DNA from: Nitrosomonas sp. | GTDB taxonomy: Bacteria > Pseudomonadota > Gammaproteobacteria > Burkholderiales > Nitrosomonadaceae | Direction: 5' to 3' | Length of the DNA stretch: 36,824 nt | Assembly (NCBI GenBank): GCA_021774055.1 | Contig: JAJFJL010000254.1 | Span: 1-36,824, forward strand | Shown: positions 3,123 through 36,824 of the stretch, one piece after another | How the letters are laid out: each line of letters begins with the position of its first letter | How positions within the stretch are numbered: position 1 is the stretch's first letter | Position numbers and translations under genes: made by a program | Notes under the pieces: generated by a model | Told to the model about the DNA's origin: nothing | Seen by the model: the letters and a program-made list of their open reading frames with translations, nothing else | The model's database searches: none

Positions 3123-3134
3123 GAGTATTTTTAA

Positions 3135-3240
3135 GCATCCTTCATTATTCGGTTTATATTTAAGGTAGGGGGTGTTTTACGCACCAACGTTATAAATGGT
3201 GCATGGAATGCACCCTACTTTTGGTTTATTTTTTATACTG
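3135..3240 (+). repeat. Repeat family A copy (MITE-like, hairpin core GTAGGGGGTGTTTTACGCACCAACGTTATAAATGGTGCATGGAATGCACCCTAC)
   Basis: Same end (CATCCTTCA.TATTCGGTTTA.ATTTAA) and core as 25034-25175 and reverse of 21639-21780. Confidence 0.8.
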
Positions 3241-5243: not shown

Positions 5244-8138
5244 TCATGTACGTTCCTTAGTACACCAGGTTTTCCACATATTGCGATAAGCTTGTTCAAT
5301 CTTTAATGCAAAGCCTTCCTCATCTCTTAGTGGGCTATTTTCCATTTGATCACGTAAAGTAGCACGCACAGCTGACAAATGATTCAAATCACCTGCTAAT
5401 TCAACTGCTTTATTAATATAATCTTCTTCGCTTTCAGCTATCCATTCTGGGTGCCCTAGTCCGTGCAAAATACAACTGCCCAGACGTCCAACTGAAGGCC
5501 GCCCAGCTAACGTAATGTATGGTACACCCATGTACAATGTTTCAAACAAAGTGGCGCCAGAGTTATGTGGGAAACAATCCAAACCGATGTCGGTACTACG
5601 TAGCACATCCCACGGCGGGCTATGATAACCAATTTGTAATCTTTCCCTAGTAATACCATGTGCAGCAAATTTATCAGCAAACATATCCTGCATACACTTT
5701 CCAATGAAAGCTTTGCTATCAATTATCAACTGTGAGTTTTCTACCTGCTTAAGAATTTCCGACCAAACCCGAATTGTCCGGTAGTTAATGCGAATTGGGC
5801 GAGTTAATGTACCGAAGGTAACATATCCCTTGGTTGACGCTGGCAGAGCATTGACTTCTCCCATACCCTTAGCCGGTCGATAGCCAAAACTTGGTGTTGC
5901 AACTCTATAGGGTGTTTCAGAAAAAAGGTATTCGCTACCTGGTGGAACCGTAGCTATATCTGTTAAAAAATAGTCAATTGCTGTTAATCCAGTAGTATAA
6001 CCATACCCTAACCATGATATTGATACCGGCGCAGGTTTTCGGGCAAGTACTTGCAATCTGTTTTTTTCAGTATGACCCGCCAAGTCGATTAAAACATCAA
6101 TTCTATCTGTACGAATACGCTCAGCCAATGCACTGTCAGACATGCCATTAGTTAGAATCCAGTGATCTACATAGCCTTTCAAACGTTTGCTCACTAAGTC
6201 TTCTGTTGTCAGTTCTGCATAGGCATATACTTCAACGGCTTGTTTATTATGCCGAGACAACAAAGGTTCAATAAAATACTGTACAGAATGACTTCTGAAG
6301 TCTGAAGACACATATCCTATTTTCAGTCGGCGACTTATGCTACGATCATTATAATGATATTGCCAATCTTCTTTATGAGGCAAGCAATATTTTACATCGT
6401 ATTCTTGATAAACCTCGAATATCTCTTCTGCAGTCTTATCTGGATGATAATTTAGGATAAATAATAAATTATGGAAAGCAAAATCACCACCAGATTTAAC
6501 CTGGTTTAATTTAACTTCTAGCGCGTTACGGTAATAGGTCTCTGCTTCATCCAGTTGCCCCAGATTTTGTAACGTATTACCTAAATTATTAAGTACTTCC
6601 ACATTATTTGGCTTTATTTCTAGTGCTTTTAAGAAGCAGGTCTCAGCCTTATTAAACTGTGCTCGTTTTTGATAAACATTACCTAATGTCAGATATGATA
6701 ATGCATGGTTTGGATTTATTTTTAAAGCTTGGTTACAGCAAGCAATTGCTTCGTCTAGCCGCCCAAGTTCCTGCAAAACATTGCTCAAATTATTGTATGC
6801 GTTAATATAGTTTGGTTTAATTCTAAGCACATACCGGTAACTAGCTTCAGCTTCTTTAAAAAGATTGAGTGCTTGCAAAATAATCCCTAATGTATTATGT
6901 GCTTCAGCTGAATCTGGATTAATTTTTACTGCCTGATCGCAATAAATTTTTGCTTCGTCTAATCGTCCTAATTCCTGCAACGTATTACTCAAGTTATTGT
7001 ACGCATCAGCATAGTCAGGTTTGATTCGCAGTGCATGCTGAAAACTTATTTCCGCCTCTTTAAGAAGATTCCGTTCTTGCAAAATAACACCCAATGTATT
7101 AAGTGCCTTAGCTGAATCTGGATTTATCCGCAACGCCCTTCGACAACTTACTTCTGCTTCGTTATACCGCTTCAAGTCGTTTAGGGTGATAGCTAAATTA
7201 TTATGTATTTCATCGTTATCTGGCTCAAGTTCTGCCGCTGTTTGTAGAGGCAAAAGGGCACTCTCACTTTGTTCCATATGTTTTAATACAGAACCTAATA
7301 CTTTCCAACCAAAGGCATAATTAGGAAAATATTCTATCATTTGCTTGGCTAACCTTATGGCTTCCGTGTATTGCCCTTCATTAAACAAATTAACCAGCTC
7401 ATTTTTACGTGTTTCGACATTATCTGGTGCAAGCTCTATTACCTTTCGTAAAGGAGATAATGCCTCTTTATTTCTCCCTATCTGTTGGAGTGCTGTACCT
7501 AGCATTCTCCACCCAAAGGCATAGCTTGGATAATTCCTTGTCATTTTCTTGGCAAAAAATATAACCTTTGCATATTCTCCCCCGCTAAACAAATTAACTA
7601 GCGTATTGATCTCGTTAGATGAAGGTACTTTTATTTTGTGCAAAGAGTGTTTTTTATTAATTTCTGCTGTTTTATTCTTTAAGTCTATTTTTGCAACATA
7701 TAATAATTTTTCGGCAGGAAGCTGAGCCCATGATTGCTTTGCTCTTTGCATGTTATATTCTAAGCATTCAGCCAAAACAGTTAACATTTCCCCTTGTAAT
7801 CCATGTTGTTGTCCCACCTGCAGTACTTGCAAAGCAATTTCAGTTTTACCTGTCACTATTAACGCATCAATATAATTAAACCAATGCTCTGCTTGTTCTG
7901 GGTTTGCTTCTAATACAGTGCTGAATTGTTCCAGTCCCTCCGCAGCTAATTTAACCCGTTCTTTTAGTAGGCTTAGATTGTGGTGTACATCTGGATGATC
8001 AGGTTGAAATTGAAGAATAATACGATAAAGATATTCAGCATCCTGTAAATGACCAGCTTGGTGATGAGAGGCTGCTTTTTGGAAAGCTTGCTCAATAGTC
8101 ATTAATGTACCATCTTGTTTCAGTGTGTTTTGAGTCAC
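5244..8138 (-). CDS. TPR-repeat O-linked N-acetylglucosaminyltransferase / SPINDLY family glycosyltransferase (GT41-like)
   Basis: Many TPRs followed by RRLKIGYVSSDFRSHSV... IDVLIDLAGHT ... WLGYGYTTGLTAIDYFLTD ... DIGLDCFPHNSGATLFETLYMGVPYITLAG. Confidence 0.92.
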   Translation of the reverse strand: MTQNTLKQDGTLMTIEQAFQKAASHHQAGHLQDAEYLYRIILQFQPDHPDVHHNLSLLKERVKLAAEGLEQFSTVLEANPEQAEHWFNYIDALIVTGKTEIALQVLQVGQQHGLQGEMLTVLAECLEYNMQRAKQSWAQLPAEKLLYVAKIDLKNKTAEINKKHSLHKIKVPSSNEINTLVNLFSGGEYAKVIFFAKKMTRNYPSYAFGWRMLGTALQQIGRNKEALSPLRKVIELAPDNVETRKNELVNLFNEGQYTEAIRLAKQMIEYFPNYAFGWKVLGSVLKHMEQSESALLPLQTAAELEPDNDEIHNNLAITLNDLKRYNEAEVSCRRALRINPDSAKALNTLGVILQERNLLKEAEISFQHALRIKPDYADAYNNLSNTLQELGRLDEAKIYCDQAVKINPDSAEAHNTLGIILQALNLFKEAEASYRYVLRIKPNYINAYNNLSNVLQELGRLDEAIACCNQALKINPNHALSYLTLGNVYQKRAQFNKAETCFLKALEIKPNNVEVLNNLGNTLQNLGQLDEAETYYRNALEVKLNQVKSGGDFAFHNLLFILNYHPDKTAEEIFEVYQEYDVKYCLPHKEDWQYHYNDRSISRRLKIGYVSSDFRSHSVQYFIEPLLSRHNKQAVEVYAYAELTTEDLVSKRLKGYVDHWILTNGMSDSALAERIRTDRIDVLIDLAGHTEKNRLQVLARKPAPVSISWLGYGYTTGLTAIDYFLTDIATVPPGSEYLFSETPYRVATPSFGYRPAKGMGEVNALPASTKGYVTFGTLTRPIRINYRTIRVWSEILKQVENSQLIIDSKAFIGKCMQDMFADKFAAHGITRERLQIGYHSPPWDVLRSTDIGLDCFPHNSGATLFETLYMGVPYITLAGRPSVGRLGSCILHGLGHPEWIAESEEDYINKAVELAGDLNHLSAVRATLRDQMENSPLRDEEGFALKIEQAYRNMWKTWCTKERT

Positions 8139-8303: not shown

Positions 8304-11300
8304 CTAATTTCCACGTCCCTTAGTACACCAAGTTTCCCACATAGTGCGATAAGCTTGTTCAACCTTTAATGCAAAACTTTTCTCGTCTCTTAGCGGGCTA
8401 TTTTCCATTTGATTACGTAAAGTAGCACGCACTACTGACAAATGATTTAAATCGCTTGCTAATTCAACTGCTTTATTAACATAATCTTCTTCGCTTTCAG
8501 CTATCCATTCTGAATGCCCTAGTCCGTGCAAAATACAACTGCCTAAACGCCCAACTGAAGGCCGTCCAGCTAATGTAATGTATGGTACGCCCATGTACAA
8601 TGTTTCAAATAAAGTGGCACCTGAGTTATGTGGAAAACAATCCAAACCGATATCGGTACTACGTAACACATCCCACGGCGGGCTATGATAACCAATTTGC
8701 AACCTTTCTCGAGTAATACCATGCGCTGCAAATTTATCTGCTAACATATCCTGCATATACTTTCCGCTGAAAGATCTGCTATCAATAATTAATTGTGAAT
8801 TTGGCACCTGTTTAAGAATTTCTGACCAGACTCGAATTGTCCGGTGATTGATACGCACTGGGCGAGTTAATGTACCGAAGGTAACATACCCCTTTGTTGA
8901 CGCTGGCAACACATTGACTTCTCCCATACCTTCAGCCGGTCGATAGCTAAAGCTTGGTGTTGCAATTCTATATGGCGTCTCGGAAAAAAGAGCTTCGCTG
9001 CCCAGCGGGACTGTAGTTATATCTGTTAAAAAATAATCAATTGCGGTTAATCCAGTAGTATAACCATACCCTAACCATGATATTGATACCGGCGTAGGTT
9101 TACGAGCAAATACTTGCAATCTAGTTTTTGCAGTATGCCCTGCCAAATCGACTAGTATATCAATATCATCAGCACGAATACGCTCTGTCAATGCAATGTC
9201 AGATACGCCTATAGTTGGAATCCAGTGATCCACATAGTCTTTGAAACGTGCACTCACTAAATCTTCTTTTGTAAGCTCCGCATAAGCATATACTTCAACA
9301 GCTTGTTTATTATGGTGAGCCAATAAGGGTTCAATAAAATAGTGTACAGAATGATTTCTGAAGTCCGGTGATACATAGCCTATTTTTAGTCGGCGTTGTA
9401 TATCGCGACTGTTGTTATGAGGTTGCCATTCAGCTTGGTGGAATAAGCAGTACTTATTGTTATATTCTTGATAAACTTTAAATATCTCTTCTGCAGTTTT
9501 ATCTGGATGGTAATTTATGGTAAACAATAAATTACGGAAAGCCAGATCATCACCAGATTCAATCTTCAATGCTTGTTGGAAGCAGGTTTCAGTTTCATCA
9601 AATCTTCCCAAGCGGTGTAATGTGTTACCTAAATTAATGTAAGCCAAAGCGCTGCCGGGGTCAATTTCTAATGCTTTCCTACAGCAAGCCTCCGCCTCAT
9701 CTAAGCGCCCTAAAATCTGTAGTGTGTTGCCTAAATTATGATAGGCAGAAACATCATTCGGCTTAGCCTCTATTACCTTCCTAAAGGATGATTCAGCTTT
9801 ATTTAATTTCCCAAGATCCTGCGAAACGTTACCCATCATTAACTGAGCCGAAATAAAATTTGGCTTGATTTCCAGTGTCTTACGATAGCAAGTCTCAGAT
9901 TCATCTAGTCGTCCTTGAGTTTGCAATATATTACCTAAATTATTATAGGCTTCTGCTAGATTCGGTTTTATTTTTATTGCCTGCACGAAGCATGCTTCAG
10001 CTTTATCCAATTGCTCAAGTTCTCGATAGATATTTCCTAATGTTAAGTGTGCTGATGCGTAATTTGGATCCACTTTTAACGCTTTATGGCAATAGTCTTT
10101 TGCTTCATCTAAACGCCCCTGTTCTTGAAGGGTATTACTTAAGTTATTGCACGCACCAGTATAATTTGGTTTTATCTGTAGTGCATGTTGATAGCTAGCT
10201 TCTGCTTCATCAAGACGATTAAGTGCTTGTAAAATAATCCCTAGTGTATTGTGTGTTTCTGCTGACTCTGGATCAAGCTGTAACGATCTTCGACAGCTTA
10301 TTTCCGCTTCTTTAGAGAATTCCAATTCGTTTAGGGTAATAGCCAAATTATTATGAGCTTCAGCATCATCTGGTGAAAACTCAACTGCTTTTTTAAGAGA
10401 AAGCAAGGCATCTTTACTTTGGTCTATCTGTTTTAGCACCGAACCTAGCACTTTCCAGCCAAATGCATAATTAGGGCAATCTTCTGTCATTTGCTTGGAT
10501 AACTGGATAACCTCTGTATATTTCCCTTTATTAAACAAATCAACCAATGTATTTTTACGTGTTTCGGCATCATCTGGCGCAAGCTTTACCACTTTTTGCA
10601 AAGGGAGTAACGCTTCTTTATTTCGCCCTGTTTGTTGCAGCGCTGTTCCTAGCATTCTCCAACCAAAAGCATAACCCGGGTAATTTTTTGTCATTTTCCT
10701 AGAAAGTGATATAACTTTTATATATTCTCCTTTGTTAAACAGATTAATTAGTACACTTGTTTGTTGAGATGAAGGTGTTTTTATTTTTTTTGATGAATAT
10801 TTTTTGCTCTGCTTAGTAGACTTGTCATTAGTTTTTATTACGTTGTTTTTTAAATTTATTTTTTCTATTTGCAATAATTCCTCGGCCGGAATCTGATTCC
10901 ATGATTGCTTCGCTCTTTGTCTATCATATTCTAAACGCTCAGCTAGGATAGATAACATTTCACCCTGTAATCCATGTTTCCGCCCCACTTGTAATACTTG
11001 TTGAGCAATCTCAATTTGACCGGTCACTAATAACGCATCAATATAGTTAAACCAATGTTCTGCTTGTTCTGGACTGGCTTCTAATACAGCGTTAAATTGC
11101 TCCAAACCCTGAGTAGCTAATTTAACTTGCTCTTCCAACAAACTTATGTTGTGCGGCACATCTGGATGATCAGGCTGAAATTGAAGAATAATACGATAAA
11201 GATATTCAGCATCTTGTAAATGACCAGCTTTATGATGAGTAACTGCTCTTTGGAAAGCTTGCTCAATAGTCATTAATGTACTTGGTGGTGGTTGCTGCAT

Positions 11301-11315
11301 CTTGGTGTCAGTCAT
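8304..11315 (-). CDS. Paralogous TPR-OGT / SPINDLY family glycosyltransferase
   Basis: Very similar N-terminus and C-terminal catalytic half to 5244-8138; different TPR number/sequence. Confidence 0.92.
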   Translation of the reverse strand: MTDTKMQQPPPSTLMTIEQAFQRAVTHHKAGHLQDAEYLYRIILQFQPDHPDVPHNISLLEEQVKLATQGLEQFNAVLEASPEQAEHWFNYIDALLVTGQIEIAQQVLQVGRKHGLQGEMLSILAERLEYDRQRAKQSWNQIPAEELLQIEKINLKNNVIKTNDKSTKQSKKYSSKKIKTPSSQQTSVLINLFNKGEYIKVISLSRKMTKNYPGYAFGWRMLGTALQQTGRNKEALLPLQKVVKLAPDDAETRKNTLVDLFNKGKYTEVIQLSKQMTEDCPNYAFGWKVLGSVLKQIDQSKDALLSLKKAVEFSPDDAEAHNNLAITLNELEFSKEAEISCRRSLQLDPESAETHNTLGIILQALNRLDEAEASYQHALQIKPNYTGACNNLSNTLQEQGRLDEAKDYCHKALKVDPNYASAHLTLGNIYRELEQLDKAEACFVQAIKIKPNLAEAYNNLGNILQTQGRLDESETCYRKTLEIKPNFISAQLMMGNVSQDLGKLNKAESSFRKVIEAKPNDVSAYHNLGNTLQILGRLDEAEACCRKALEIDPGSALAYINLGNTLHRLGRFDETETCFQQALKIESGDDLAFRNLLFTINYHPDKTAEEIFKVYQEYNNKYCLFHQAEWQPHNNSRDIQRRLKIGYVSPDFRNHSVHYFIEPLLAHHNKQAVEVYAYAELTKEDLVSARFKDYVDHWIPTIGVSDIALTERIRADDIDILVDLAGHTAKTRLQVFARKPTPVSISWLGYGYTTGLTAIDYFLTDITTVPLGSEALFSETPYRIATPSFSYRPAEGMGEVNVLPASTKGYVTFGTLTRPVRINHRTIRVWSEILKQVPNSQLIIDSRSFSGKYMQDMLADKFAAHGITRERLQIGYHSPPWDVLRSTDIGLDCFPHNSGATLFETLYMGVPYITLAGRPSVGRLGSCILHGLGHSEWIAESEEDYVNKAVELASDLNHLSVVRATLRNQMENSPLRDEKSFALKVEQAYRTMWETWCTKGRGN

Positions 11316-11895: not shown

Positions 11896-11914
11896 TTATG
11901 TACCCGTTAATTTG

Positions 11915-12125
11915 ATATATGGAACAATCTGCTGTGCAGTATGTGTGCGATTACTTGCAGGATCTAGGTGTTATCGTTAAATTTCAGTGTTACCGCATAC
12001 AACAGACCTACTTACAGCAAACCCCACTCTTTAAAAATATCAATAAGTATTCTACGCAAAATAAAACTCACCCTGCAAAATAATTTGCTGCACATTACAG
12101 GTACGATTACCGACGAAATCTAGAT
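11915..12125. repeat. Degenerate repeat family B sequences (inverted half copy followed by a diverged copy)
   Basis: ATATGGAACAATCTGCTGTGCAGTATGTGTGCGATTACTTGCAGGATCTAGG matches the reverse complement of the left end of 27613-27773; AATATCAATAAGTATTCTACGCA...TTTGCTGCACATTACAGGTACGATTAC matches core and right half. Confidence 0.7.
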
Positions 12126-16523: not shown

Positions 16524-16526
16524 TAC

Positions 16527-16600
16527 TTTAGGAATATCAATAGGTATTCCATGCGAAGTAACATTCACTCTATGAAGCAACTTGTTAGATACCAAATGAT
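16527..16600 (+). repeat. Degenerate family B half copy
   Basis: GGAATATCAATAGGTATTCCATGCGAAGTAACATTCACTCTATGAAGCAACTTGTTAG matches core and right half of 27613-27773. Confidence 0.65.
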
Positions 16601-17823: not shown

Positions 17824-19533
17824 GTGATTCCGACTACTATCAAAACTGATGCAACGTCACATTCGCCAAATATAGGTCCGGTTGCACCTATAACACCGGT
17901 AACTGCTGCTAGTGATTCACTACATTCAAACCTCACCTTGGGACAAAAATACCAAGCAATTGTTGATGTACGACTAGCAAATGGTGCGGCCAGAGTTTTA
18001 ATTGCAGGACGGCCTTTGCAAATAAATCTTCCTAAAGATATTCTTTCTGGAAATGAAATAGAACTGGTACTTGTCGCCAAGGAACCAAAGTTAAAATTTC
18101 TACTGCAAGATAATATTTCAAAAACTGGCGAGGCGTTACTATCATCAAAATCAGGTTCAGCCACTCCAATAACAGCTACATCAGCAACGTTGCAAAATAA
18201 TATTTCCAAAACTAGCGAGGCATTACTATCATCAAAATCAAGTTCAGCTACTCCAATAACAGCTACATCAGCAACGTTACAAAGTAATATTTCCAAAACT
18301 AGCGAGGCATTACTATCATCAAAATCAAGTTCAGCCACTCCAGTAACAGCTACATCAACAACGTTACAAAGTAATATTTCCAAAACTAGCGAAGCATTAC
18401 TATCATCAAAATCAGGTTCAACCACGCCAATAACAGCTACATCAGCAACGTTACAAAGTAATATTTCCAAAACTAGCGAAGCATTACTATCATCAAAATC
18501 AGGTTCAACCACTCCAATAACAGCTACATCAGCAACGTTACAAAGTAATATTTCCAAAACTAGCGAAACATTACTATCATCAAAATCAGGTTCAACCACT
18601 CCAATAACAGCTACTCCAGATTTAACCCAACCAGATCTCGATTTCACCTTGGGTCAAAAATATCAAGCAGTCGTTGATACACGACTAGCAAACGGCAATA
18701 CCAGGGTTTTAATTGCAGAGCATTCATTACAGATGAATCTCTCCAAAGATATTCTTTCTGGAAGTAAAATAGAACTTGTATTTATTGCTAAAGAGCCAAA
18801 TTTAAAATTTTTACTACAAAACAACACTTCTTTAGATAAAAGCAAAGGTTCGGCTGTTATTAGCTCAACCGGAAGCCTTATTGGTTCGTTAGCACAAGGC
18901 ATCGCAAAATCACCTGCATCGCAACCCCTAATCAGTACAACACCTATTTTGACAAGTCCACCAACAAATAGCGCGGAAACCTCCGTTTTATTACAAAAAA
19001 CATTATCTCAAAGTGGGTTATTCTATGAGTCACATCAGTCACAATGGTTGGTTGGAGAAAAAACATTAATACAATTGAAACAAGAGCCTCAAGGTAAACT
19101 AGTCATTGCGTCAGGTTCCACCAATATCTCCGCTACTGTATTAAACAGTGATACACCTGCTAACACACAAAACTTGCCTTTAGTACAACAACAGCTTGCT
19201 GTACTGGAAACAAATCATTTGGCTTGGCATGGGGAGATATGGCCTAAGCAGATAATGGAATGGGAGGTTCTTGAAAAGAAGTCAGATGGAAACAAATCAG
19301 AAGAAGATGAACAACCAACTCCATGGCAAACAAAATTACGCCTTGATTTGCCAAAACTAGGTGAAGTTTCTGCTACTATTATGTTTAATTCTGGTAATGT
19401 GCGTATTAAGATTCATACCAACACTGAAACCACAAAATTATTAAAAAACAACCAGCCACAGCTAACAACTGCCATGAATATAGCAGGCTTGAATGTTCAA
19501 GCGGTAGAGGTATTTCATGATGATGAAAAATGA
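17824..19533 (+). CDS. fliK: Flagellar hook-length control protein (FliK-like) with internal tandem repeats
   Basis: C-term LRLDLPKLGEVSATIMFNSGNVRIKIHTNTETTKLLKNNQPQLTTAMNIAGLNVQAVEVF resembles FliK Flg_hook domain; GTG start; followed by FlhB-like gene. Confidence 0.85.
   Translation: MIPTTIKTDATSHSPNIGPVAPITPVTAASDSLHSNLTLGQKYQAIVDVRLANGAARVLIAGRPLQINLPKDILSGNEIELVLVAKEPKLKFLLQDNISKTGEALLSSKSGSATPITATSATLQNNISKTSEALLSSKSSSATPITATSATLQSNISKTSEALLSSKSSSATPVTATSTTLQSNISKTSEALLSSKSGSTTPITATSATLQSNISKTSEALLSSKSGSTTPITATSATLQSNISKTSETLLSSKSGSTTPITATPDLTQPDLDFTLGQKYQAVVDTRLANGNTRVLIAEHSLQMNLSKDILSGSKIELVFIAKEPNLKFLLQNNTSLDKSKGSAVISSTGSLIGSLAQGIAKSPASQPLISTTPILTSPPTNSAETSVLLQKTLSQSGLFYESHQSQWLVGEKTLIQLKQEPQGKLVIASGSTNISATVLNSDTPANTQNLPLVQQQLAVLETNHLAWHGEIWPKQIMEWEVLEKKSDGNKSEEDEQPTPWQTKLRLDLPKLGEVSATIMFNSGNVRIKIHTNTETTKLLKNNQPQLTTAMNIAGLNVQAVEVFHDDEK
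18112..18616 (+). repeat. Six tandem 87-bp repeats (29 aa, QSNISKTSEALLSSKSGSTTPITATSATL) inside fliK
   Basis: AATATTTC.AAAAC starts at 18112, 18199, 18286, 18373, 18460, 18547, i.e. exact 87-bp period. Confidence 0.97.
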
Positions 19534-19869: not shown

Positions 19870-20634
19870 ATGCCTAAGCTCAATCAAGTATTAGAAGAAT
19901 CTGCGCGCATTGAGTCGATGCAAGAAGAAGATAAAGATAAGGAATTTCGTATCCATGACAAATTGGATATCTGCGCCGTTCTGCAAAAAATTAAGCGTAA
20001 GCATTCATTGATAACAATGTACCTTGGTAAAAGCAATAACTTTATTCTAACTTCAATTTTGGCAGTCGATACGGAGCACAATGAAATAATTATTGACTAC
20101 GGTATTGATGAAGCATTAAATCAGCTTGCACTTAAGGCTGACAGATTGACTTTCATTGCATCTGAAGATCGCATTAAAATAGATTTTGTCTGTAACACTA
20201 TTAAAAAAATGCAGTTTGAAGAACGCAATGCTTTTATCGTCAATTTACCTGATTCTTTGGTTCGAATGCAAAGAAGAAATTATTTCAGGGTTGTGACGCC
20301 AACTATTAATACATTAAAATGTATTATTCCGTTACCTGATGGACATAATACAGAAGTTGCATTAGCTGATATAAGCAGTGGTGGTACTGCATTAATAGAG
20401 CATAAGCCTGTGGTTAATTTTGAATTAGGAACGACGTTTAGAAACTGCCAGATTATATTACCCAACGTCGGCACCGTTACTGTGACAATTCAAGTAAAAA
20501 ATACTTTTGAAGTCACCTTAAAGAATGACGATGTTTGCAAACGTATTGGATGTGAATTTGTAGCACTACCAATGAAAATGGCAGCGATTATACAACGTTA
20601 TATTATGAAACTAGAACAGATGGCACGCTCATAA
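19870..20634 (+). CDS. ycgR: Flagellar brake-type PilZ protein (YcgR-like)
   Basis: YcgR-like N-terminal region plus PilZ motifs RNYFR (RxxxR) and DISSGG (D/NxSxxG). Confidence 0.82.
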   Translation: MPKLNQVLEESARIESMQEEDKDKEFRIHDKLDICAVLQKIKRKHSLITMYLGKSNNFILTSILAVDTEHNEIIIDYGIDEALNQLALKADRLTFIASEDRIKIDFVCNTIKKMQFEERNAFIVNLPDSLVRMQRRNYFRVVTPTINTLKCIIPLPDGHNTEVALADISSGGTALIEHKPVVNFELGTTFRNCQIILPNVGTVTVTIQVKNTFEVTLKNDDVCKRIGCEFVALPMKMAAIIQRYIMKLEQMARS

Positions 20635-20639
20635 AGGTA

Positions 20640-20790
20640 GCGCCTAGATCTTGTACAACAAACTATTTCATATAGAAAACTTTATTCTTTGGGGATATCA
20701 ATAAGTATTCCAAAAAGAATAAAATCTATGAGTCACAGCATCAACACCTCCATAATCGTCGTAATGGCGCATGGAATACACCCTGTAGAG
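20640..20790 (+). repeat. Chimeric repeat: family B half joined to a family A core fragment
   Basis: CTTTATTCTTTGGGGATATCAATAAGTATTCCAAAAAGAATAAA (B core) then TGGCGCATGGAATACACCCTGTAG (A core end). Confidence 0.65.
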
Positions 20791-21162: not shown

Positions 21163-21198
21163 GATTTAAACCCAACCTTTATTCACCTAAGCCTCACA

Positions 21199-21388
21199 AA
21201 CGATCATGCATATAATGTATAACAAATTGTTTCATAGAGTGAATCTTATTCCACATAGAATAAAGTTTGCCATATGAGACCCACTGTTGCCTTACAAAGA
21301 AACAACATAACCTTACCCCTGATACGATACCCGTAGAGCGCATTCCATGCATCATTTATACGATTGGTGTGTAAAAAACACCCTATTA
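21199..21388. repeat. Chimeric repeat: family B half with deleted core, then family A core in reverse orientation
   Basis: CATATAATGTATAACAAATTGTTTCATAGAGTGAATCTTATTCC (B) and GCATTCCATGCATCATTTATACGATTGGTGTGTAAAAAACACCCTA (A core, reverse). Confidence 0.65.
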
Positions 21389-21638: not shown

Positions 21639-21780
21639 GGGCATCCTTAATATCAACACCAAAGTAGTTTGCACTTTTGATGTCAAAAAATCACACGCAG
21701 GTTGCATTCCATGCACCATTTATAACGTTGGTGCGTAAAGCGCACTCTACCTTAAATGTAAACTGAATAATGAAGGGCGC
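21639..21780 (-). repeat. Repeat family A, full copy in reverse orientation (142 bp)
   Basis: Ends and hairpin core match reverse complement of 25034-25175. Confidence 0.8.
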
Positions 21781-21878
21781 CGATGTTTCATGGCTTTACC
21801 TTTATAGCAACCAATCTTTACATCAGGCAGTTATTGAATTTTTTAAACAACTTCTAGTACAAATGTAGTATTGGGATT

Positions 21879-22041
21879 TATACTTTGCGCGGCCATAGTT
21901 TCAGTTTTCTAGTGGATCATTTTTGCCAATACCAGCGTTACTGAAATAATTACATGGCTAGCTATGCACTTGTTTCAGCACCTTGCTCTTGACAAAAATT
22001 ATCACACTGTAAAATCTGAAACCATGACCGCGAAAAGTATA
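21879..22041 (+). repeat. Repeat family C, copy 1 (163 bp, inverted terminal arms, internal hairpin)
   Basis: Near-identical to 36529-36691; TATACTTTGCGCGGCCATAGTTTCAG ... CTGAAACCATGACCGCGAAAAGTATA; internal CTGAAATAATTACATGGCTAGCTATGCACTTGTTTCAG. Confidence 0.9.
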
Positions 22042-25022: not shown

Positions 25023-25033
25023 TATAATTTATT

Positions 25034-25175
25034 GGGCATCCTTCAATATTCGGTTTACATTTAAGCCAGAGTGTGTTTTACGCACCAACGCTATAAATAG
25101 TGCATAGAATGCACTCTACTTGTAATTTTTTACATCAAAAGTGTAAACTAGTTTGATGCTGATATGAAAGGTGCC
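25034..25175 (+). repeat. Repeat family A full copy (142 bp)
   Basis: GGGCATCCTTCAATATTCGGTTTACATTTAA...core...ACATCAAAAGTGTAAACTAGTTTGATGCTGATATGAAAGGTGCC. Confidence 0.85.
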
Positions 25176-26114: not shown

Positions 26115-27617
26115 ATGACATATACCAGCAACTGGTGTGATTTCTTACAAAACTGCCAGCAACGTGTTACTACTTCAGACTCGTTTGGCAAACAAGAAAT
26201 ACAGACAGAAGATGAGATTAAGGCACGGCACATTAATAACTGGCGTGATTATTTGAAAAATTGCAACCAACTTATTGGTAGTTCAAATCCATTCCTGCAT
26301 AGTGGAACTTTAACTAGAGTTGCCGGGTTAGTGATGGAAGCAGTTGGTCTTAAATTGGCTGTTGGTAGTAGTTGCACTGTTTTTCTTACCAATGGCAGTA
26401 GTGTTCCAGCTGAAGTTGTTGGATTTTCAAGTGATAAATTATTTTTAATGCCATTAAGTGATGTTTATGGGCTGGTATCTGGTGCTAAAGTTATTCCTAT
26501 TGAATTTGTCGGAGAATTACCGAAAATTGGTTGTATTCAATATCCACGGCGACGAGCTGCAGACCATGCAAAACATGTAACAGTTGGTTATGAATTATTA
26601 GGGCGAGTATTAAATGGCGCAGGTGAACCACTTGATCAATTTGGTCCTATTCATACAAACCATAGTGTACCTTTATATAGTAGGCCGTATAACCCTTTAG
26701 AACGTACCCCGGTTACTGACCCACTTGATGTTGGTGTGCGTGCAATTAATACTTTGTTAAGTGTAGGGCGGGGGCAGCGTATGGGGCTGTTTGCCGGGAG
26801 TGGTGTTGGTAAAAGCGTTTTACTTGGAATGATGGCACGTTATACTAGCGCTGATGTAATTGTTGTTGCACTTATCGGTGAACGAGGTCGGGAAGTAAAA
26901 GAGTTTATAGAAAATATTCTAGGCAGTGAAGGTTTAAAACGTTCTGTTGTCGTGGCTGCTCCAGCTGATACTTCCCCGTTATTAAGATTACAAGGTGCAG
27001 CTTATGCAACCTCAATAGCTGAATATTTTCGTGATGAAGGAAAACATGTACTCTTAATCATGGACTCGCTAACTCGATATGCTATGGCACAACGAGAAAT
27101 TGCACTTGCTATTGGTGAACCACCTGCTACTAAAGGATACCCACCTTCAGTCTTTGCCAAATTGCCGCAATTGGTAGAACGTGCGGGAAATGGTAATAGT
27201 AGCGGTGGCTCAATTACAGCATTTTATACCGTACTAACGGAAGGTGATGATCAGAATGACCCAATTGCTGATAATGCTAGAGCAATTCTTGATGGACATA
27301 TTGTGCTTTCACGTCGGTTATCTGAGTCTGGACATTTTCCTGCTATTGATATAGAAGCATCAATAAGCCGTGTTATGCCTAGTATTATTTCGCAAGAACA
27401 GGCTGATTCATCGCGTAAGTTCAGAAGTCTTTACTCTCGCTATCAACGTAGTCATGATTTAATTAGTGTGGGTGCCTATGTAAGTGGTACTGATCCAGAA
27501 TTAGATTTAGCTATTTCATTTTATCCTGCGTTAGAATCTTTTCTAAAACAAGATATGTTTCAACAAGAAAGTTTTGACGAGAGTCAAAATAAACTAAAGG
27601 CACTATTTAATACCTAG
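26115..27617 (+). CDS. fliI: Flagellum-specific ATPase FliI
   Basis: [19 protein letters not shown] Walker [55 protein letters not shown]. Confidence 0.98.
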
Positions 27618-27773
27618 ACACTGCAAGTAATCGCACACATACTGCACAACAGATTGTTCCATATAGAAAACCTTATTCTTTGGGAATATCAATAAGTATT
27701 CCACGCAGAATAAGATTCACTCTATGAAACAATTTGTAGCACATTATATGTACGATTACTTGCAGGATCTAGG
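27613..27773 (+). repeat. Repeat family B, best copy (161 bp, about 53-bp inverted terminal repeats)
   Basis: CCTAGACACTGCAAGTAATCGCACACATACTGCACAACAGATTGTTCCATATAG pairs with reverse complement of right end CCTAGATCCTGCAAGTAATCGTACATATAATGTGCTACAAATTGTTTCATAGAG; core GGAATATCAATAAGTATTCC. Confidence 0.92.
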
Positions 27774-27843
27774 TAATACCTAGATTGTGTGAGTGATATT
27801 GTTTAACCATGATGACAATAAACAATAGGGTAAAAAAACAATT

Positions 27844-36528: not shown

Positions 36529-36691
36529 TATACTTCGCACAGTCATAGTTTAGGTTTTCTAGTGGATCATTTTTGCCAATATCAGCGTTACTGAAACAAT
36601 TACATAGCTAGCTATGCACTTGTTTCAGCGCCTTGCTCTTGACAAAAATTATCACACTATAAAATCCTAAACTATGACTGTTCAGAGTATA
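36529..36691 (+). repeat. Repeat family C, copy 2 (163 bp)
   Basis: Same length and core as 21879-22041; arms ACAGTCATAGTTTAGG / CCTAAACTATGACTGT. Confidence 0.9.
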
Positions 36692-36824
36692 GTTACTATA
36701 AATTATACCTAGGAGCCTGTCGGACTTATGAGTTTCGGCTGCAAATTCGGAGAAATCGGCCCAAATCCTCCCCAGTTTTCGTTAAATATACCAAATATTC
36801 GCCTCAAACCGGTGATAATTTGGC

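Follow-up and report, generated by a model that had tools for sequence, protein, structure and literature searches.

A family of 163-bp repeats in Nitrosomonas, very probably non-coding MITEs with the ends of an IS630/Tc1-mariner-type element

The window (the whole 36,824-nucleotide stretch analysed here) carries two copies of a 163-bp repeat, the first of which sits in a repeat-filled intergenic region adjoining fliE, 42 bp upstream of the fliF start. Judged by the relatives of its FliF, with a top match of 69% identity, the host belongs to Nitrosomonas; its assembly is a MAG of 3.07 Mb in 256 contigs, 84% complete. The two copies, named here as putative miniature elements (MITEs), and their parts are as follows.

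21879..22041, + strand: putative MITE copy 1, full, both TA target duplications included
21879..21904, + strand: left terminal inverted repeat of copy 1, TATACTTTGCGCGGCCATAGTTTCAG
22016..22041, - strand: right terminal inverted repeat of copy 1, reading TATACTTTTCGCGGTCATGGTTTCAG on the - strand, 3 mismatches to the left arm
21941..21978, strand unassigned: internal hairpin of copy 1
36529..36691, + strand: putative MITE copy 2, full
36529..36554, + strand: left terminal inverted repeat of copy 2
36666..36691, - strand: right terminal inverted repeat of copy 2
36591..36628, strand unassigned: internal hairpin of copy 2

The window holds other repeats as well. A second palindromic repeat family, with ends ACCTAGATCCTGCAAGTGATCGTGCA and abundant in the host, lies at 11911-12125, 16526-16598, 20634-20725, 21185-21262, and 27584-27783, and a third, with GTAGGGTGCATTCCATGCACC-type inverted ends, at 3128-3230, 21329-21385, 21685-21781, and 25029-25131. 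An 87-bp tandem repeat of six copies (18019-18701) overlaps long ORFs on both strands, and two neighbouring large paralogous ORFs (5244-8138 and 8304-11315) contain 102-bp internal repeats of 34 residues each, a TPR-like length. The contig ends shortly after TAGGAGCCTGTCGGACTTATGAG (36712-36824), which we take to resemble the end of an insertion sequence.

The first-pass annotation had recognized the two 163-bp copies and their near-identical interior, and both observations were confirmed: the copies are 88% identical overall, with 5 differences in the interior (counted by eye), and the internal hairpin was found in each. Its terminal arms of 16 bp proved to be 26 bp long and to reach the ends of the element, which begins with TA, runs from TACTTCGC to GCGAAGTA and closes with TA (TATACTT...AGTATA in both copies). 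The arms do differ between the copies at several positions, as had been noted, but their complementarity within each copy is partial, with 3 mismatches in 26 bp in copy 1 and 3 in copy 2. The whole element is about 80% similar to its own reverse complement in a gapped alignment, a near-perfect whole-length palindromy that arises because the ends are inverted and parts of the interior are inverted too. No ORF of at least 80 aa overlaps the element, and the promoter/terminator scan around copy 1 gave a signal no stronger than in shuffles.

The family comprises about 40 dispersed copies in the host, 32 of them near full length and several partial, most of these genomic matches having E below 1e-25. 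The TIR (terminal inverted repeat) pattern gives 95 matches as against 0 with the reversed control, and the repetition is far beyond what chance would give. Almost all copies are intergenic, 2 of the 32 overlapping a short ORF in a rough ORF test, and their TIRs terminate in TATACTTC. Shortened copies of about 71, 89, 114, and 120 bp are also present, together with many solo ends. One solo TIR (L053, near C209:7317) directly abuts the second repeat family and could have been left behind by a deletion after insertion. For a tiny perfect palindrome at C73:30344-30373, the idea of a separate REP-like family was dropped, its exact pattern occurring only once; it looks like a TIR-TIR deletion product. 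The 163-bp consensus gave no matches in 40 relatives (24 of the same genus), core-pattern scans of genome contigs and viral contigs gave none, and neither did blastn against plasmids.

The target site can be read where one copy (L004) is nested inside another repeat family (ACCTAGATCCTGCAAG...), at a site that L027 occupies as well. Taking the element together with one TA out of L004 leaves flanks that, once joined, align gaplessly to several empty copies of that repeat, with 92-96% identity to the best of them. The net insert is 161 bp, with TA duplicated; the empty site has one TA fewer, and therefore the target duplication is TA. The second repeat family apparently lies inside a MITE copy at C178:10156-10484, the reverse of the nesting seen at L004 and L027.

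Across 85 Nitrosomonas genomes searched for the TIR pattern, the same TIR bounds MITEs of 106-107 bp in four congeners (G042, G043, G088, and G018) and, in the congeners G018 and G043, an element of 1.1 kb (L182:2269-3391, also L187 and L180), so that G018 carries both an IS and a MITE with these TIRs. The TIRs of the 1.1-kb G018 element are TATACCTCACACGGTCACATTTGCGG and TATACTCGGCACGGTCAAATATGCGG; the end of a second G018 IS copy, TATACTTCACGCGGTCACATTTGCGG, differs at 4 of 26 positions (own count) from host arm variants such as TATACTTCACGCGGTCATGGTTTCGG, and the arms of older-looking host copies are closer to the IS type (TATACTTCGCGCG..CAC..TTGC). The 1.1-kb element encodes a 348-aa ORF matching NCBIfam transpos_IS630 (NF033545) with 184 bits against a cut-off of 100, and also Pfam DDE_3. 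Acaryochloris and Pseudanabaena proteins, with ISAcma14-annotated transposases among the IS630/Tc1-mariner comparators, share about 42-43% identity with this transposase. The relative on a Pseudanabaena plasmid (43% identity) has the end TATACTTTAGACGGTCA... (TATACTT..ACGG), and the ends of the Acaryochloris relative are TATACTGCAGACG.../TATACTCTAGACGG...; the TIRs of the 1.1-kb element are absent from all the more distant IS630 relatives that were fetched from other Nitrosomonas. An IS with these ends was not found in the host's own assembly, which is incomplete as stated above, and IS copies are frequently missing from MAGs. The only relative of the congener transposase detected in the host is distant (23% identity) and broken, with one stop, and none of the four host DDE_3 loci has the TIR.

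Judging from the sequence, the 163-bp repeat is very probably a non-coding MITE of the IS630/Tc1-mariner type, whose matching arms are the inverted ends of a transposon. An IS630-type transposase, encoded by an IS now lost from the host genome or unassembled in it, would bind the 26-bp TIRs and excise the MITE, as expected from the behaviour of this family of enzymes, and would insert it at TA dinucleotides; the TIR match and the TA duplication themselves are observed. The first-pass annotation had also thought of a mobile repeat with ends matching a transposase, possibly a RAYT-like one, and the first part holds for an IS630-family IS but not for RAYT. The host does have at least 10 Y1_Tnp loci, as would suit a REP/BIME-like palindrome mobilized by a RAYT (Y1 transposase); eight Y1 loci were scanned, and no recognizable ends were found nearby except a weak 21-bp partial match at L067. 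The TIRs, the TA duplication, and the matching ends of an IS630 element point to a different mechanism, and we regard mobilization by RAYT as barely credible.

It remains to account for the arms, which had been taken to co-vary between copies and to diverge faster than the core. Left and right arms differ at 0 to 7 positions per copy among 32 copies. In the arm pairs, 37 two-sided compatible changes were counted, compared with 17.1 expected when right arms were permuted (0/5000), and a second tool confirmed the covariation excess in the arms, which is significant in shuffles. The arms do co-vary. The core pairs do not in a tree-aware count, with 2-3 compensatory changes on the same branch where 1.3-1.8 are expected. 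The faster divergence holds when all variation is counted (14.4% at arm positions 8-26 vs 5.7% in the core) but not for the rate of private mutations (1.07% vs 1.45%, p = 0.39). Private rates being equal and shared variants threefold more frequent in the arms than in the core (13.3% vs 4.3%), the arms, whose variants are mainly shared, hold a pool of shared haplotypes.

These numbers bear directly on the proposal of a structured RNA, from a regulatory or sRNA gene family, with a stem kept by selection. The consensus fold is predicted to be very stable (-79.5 kcal/mol), and the significant arm covariation would fit such a stem; any inverted repeat folds, however, and the core pairs are at expectation. 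A transcript would tolerate G-U but not A-C, and one-sided changes lead equally to both (39:38 in the arms, 44:44 in the core); the structured-RNA reading is therefore unsupported. Private mutations are no less frequent in the arms than in the core, the congener MITEs have 2-5 fixed arm mismatches, which within G042 are common to the copies, and an Rfam search of the element gave no match. Nothing here supports an RNA under selection, and the suggestion of a structured RNA in the first-pass annotation is very improbable.

Gene conversion within a stem, which had also been suggested, fares better. Arm matching might have arisen mainly after insertion, by replication template switching (quasipalindrome correction) or by gene conversion between the arms of one copy; in E. 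coli, template switching has been shown to make imperfect palindromes more perfect (PMC7202029). Each left arm has 3.4 mismatches to its own right arm and 5.1 to the right arms of its nearest core neighbours (p = 1e-5). Distances are correlated between the two arms (r = 0.30, p = 0.0015), not between arms and core. On a core-only tree, same-branch arm co-changes number 21 as against 6.1 expected (0/2000), but this tree is weakly resolved and a core-based control may mislead. When the comparison is made with copies that have similar left arms, the own right arm is hardly closer (3.4 vs 3.7, p = 0.15), and co-changes on the whole-element tree exceed expectation only slightly (5 vs 2.1; 94/2000 simulations as high). 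The tree of copies is star-like, with 88% of its length terminal. The 102 one-sided changes, set against the 37 two-sided ones, show such correction to be partial at best, and we consider it unlikely as the main source of arm matching, at odds of perhaps one to three.

For the covariation excess, the best explanation is that TIR haplotypes were passed down by source elements, with perhaps some arm-to-arm conversion: left and right TIRs would arrive together from source elements with different matched haplotypes, so that the arms co-vary. Template switching that homogenizes the arms may contribute, and conversion within copies is a possible contributor, unnecessary as the main cause. NEMIS hairpins of Neisseria are processed by RNase III. 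By analogy, the hairpin in fliF and other messages might be processed (e.g., by RNase III), which would make the family a dispersed post-transcriptional regulator with TIR haplotypes homogenized within copies by arm-to-arm conversion; we consider this improbable.

The family would add an IS630-type MITE to Nitrosomonas, where our literature search, of incomplete coverage, found no paper on MITEs. It also calls for caution, in that families of inverted-end repeats pass naive covariation tests because source elements hand matched end haplotypes to the copies. The strand asymmetry (G-U vs A-C) and the comparison of private with shared variants distinguish the inheritance of haplotypes from RNA structure.

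Known systems offer several parallels. ISY100, an IS630/Tc1-mariner element, has imperfect TIRs of 24-26 bp and a TA target duplication, its TA mechanism having been shown biochemically (PMC2170065); the host MITE shares the imperfect TIRs and the TA duplication but, unlike ISY100, carries no transposase. The Correia/NEMIS elements of Neisseria, with forms of about 107 and 155 bp, 24-bp TIRs, and stem-loop transcripts (PMC2229807), resemble it in TA termini, target duplication, TIRs, and similar sizes, a likeness drawn from descriptions. The repeat unit of pneumococcus (RUP), 107 bp long with a 9-bp TIR in the table of the review and partnered by IS630-Spn1, is likewise a non-coding element of about 100 bp with IS630-like TIRs and TA insertion (PMC2229807). 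RUP differs in its host, in its smaller size, and in having its partner IS in the same species, whereas that of the host MITE was found only in congeners. The 163-bp repeats are a new family of a well-known kind, and RUP with IS630-Spn1 is the closest precedent.
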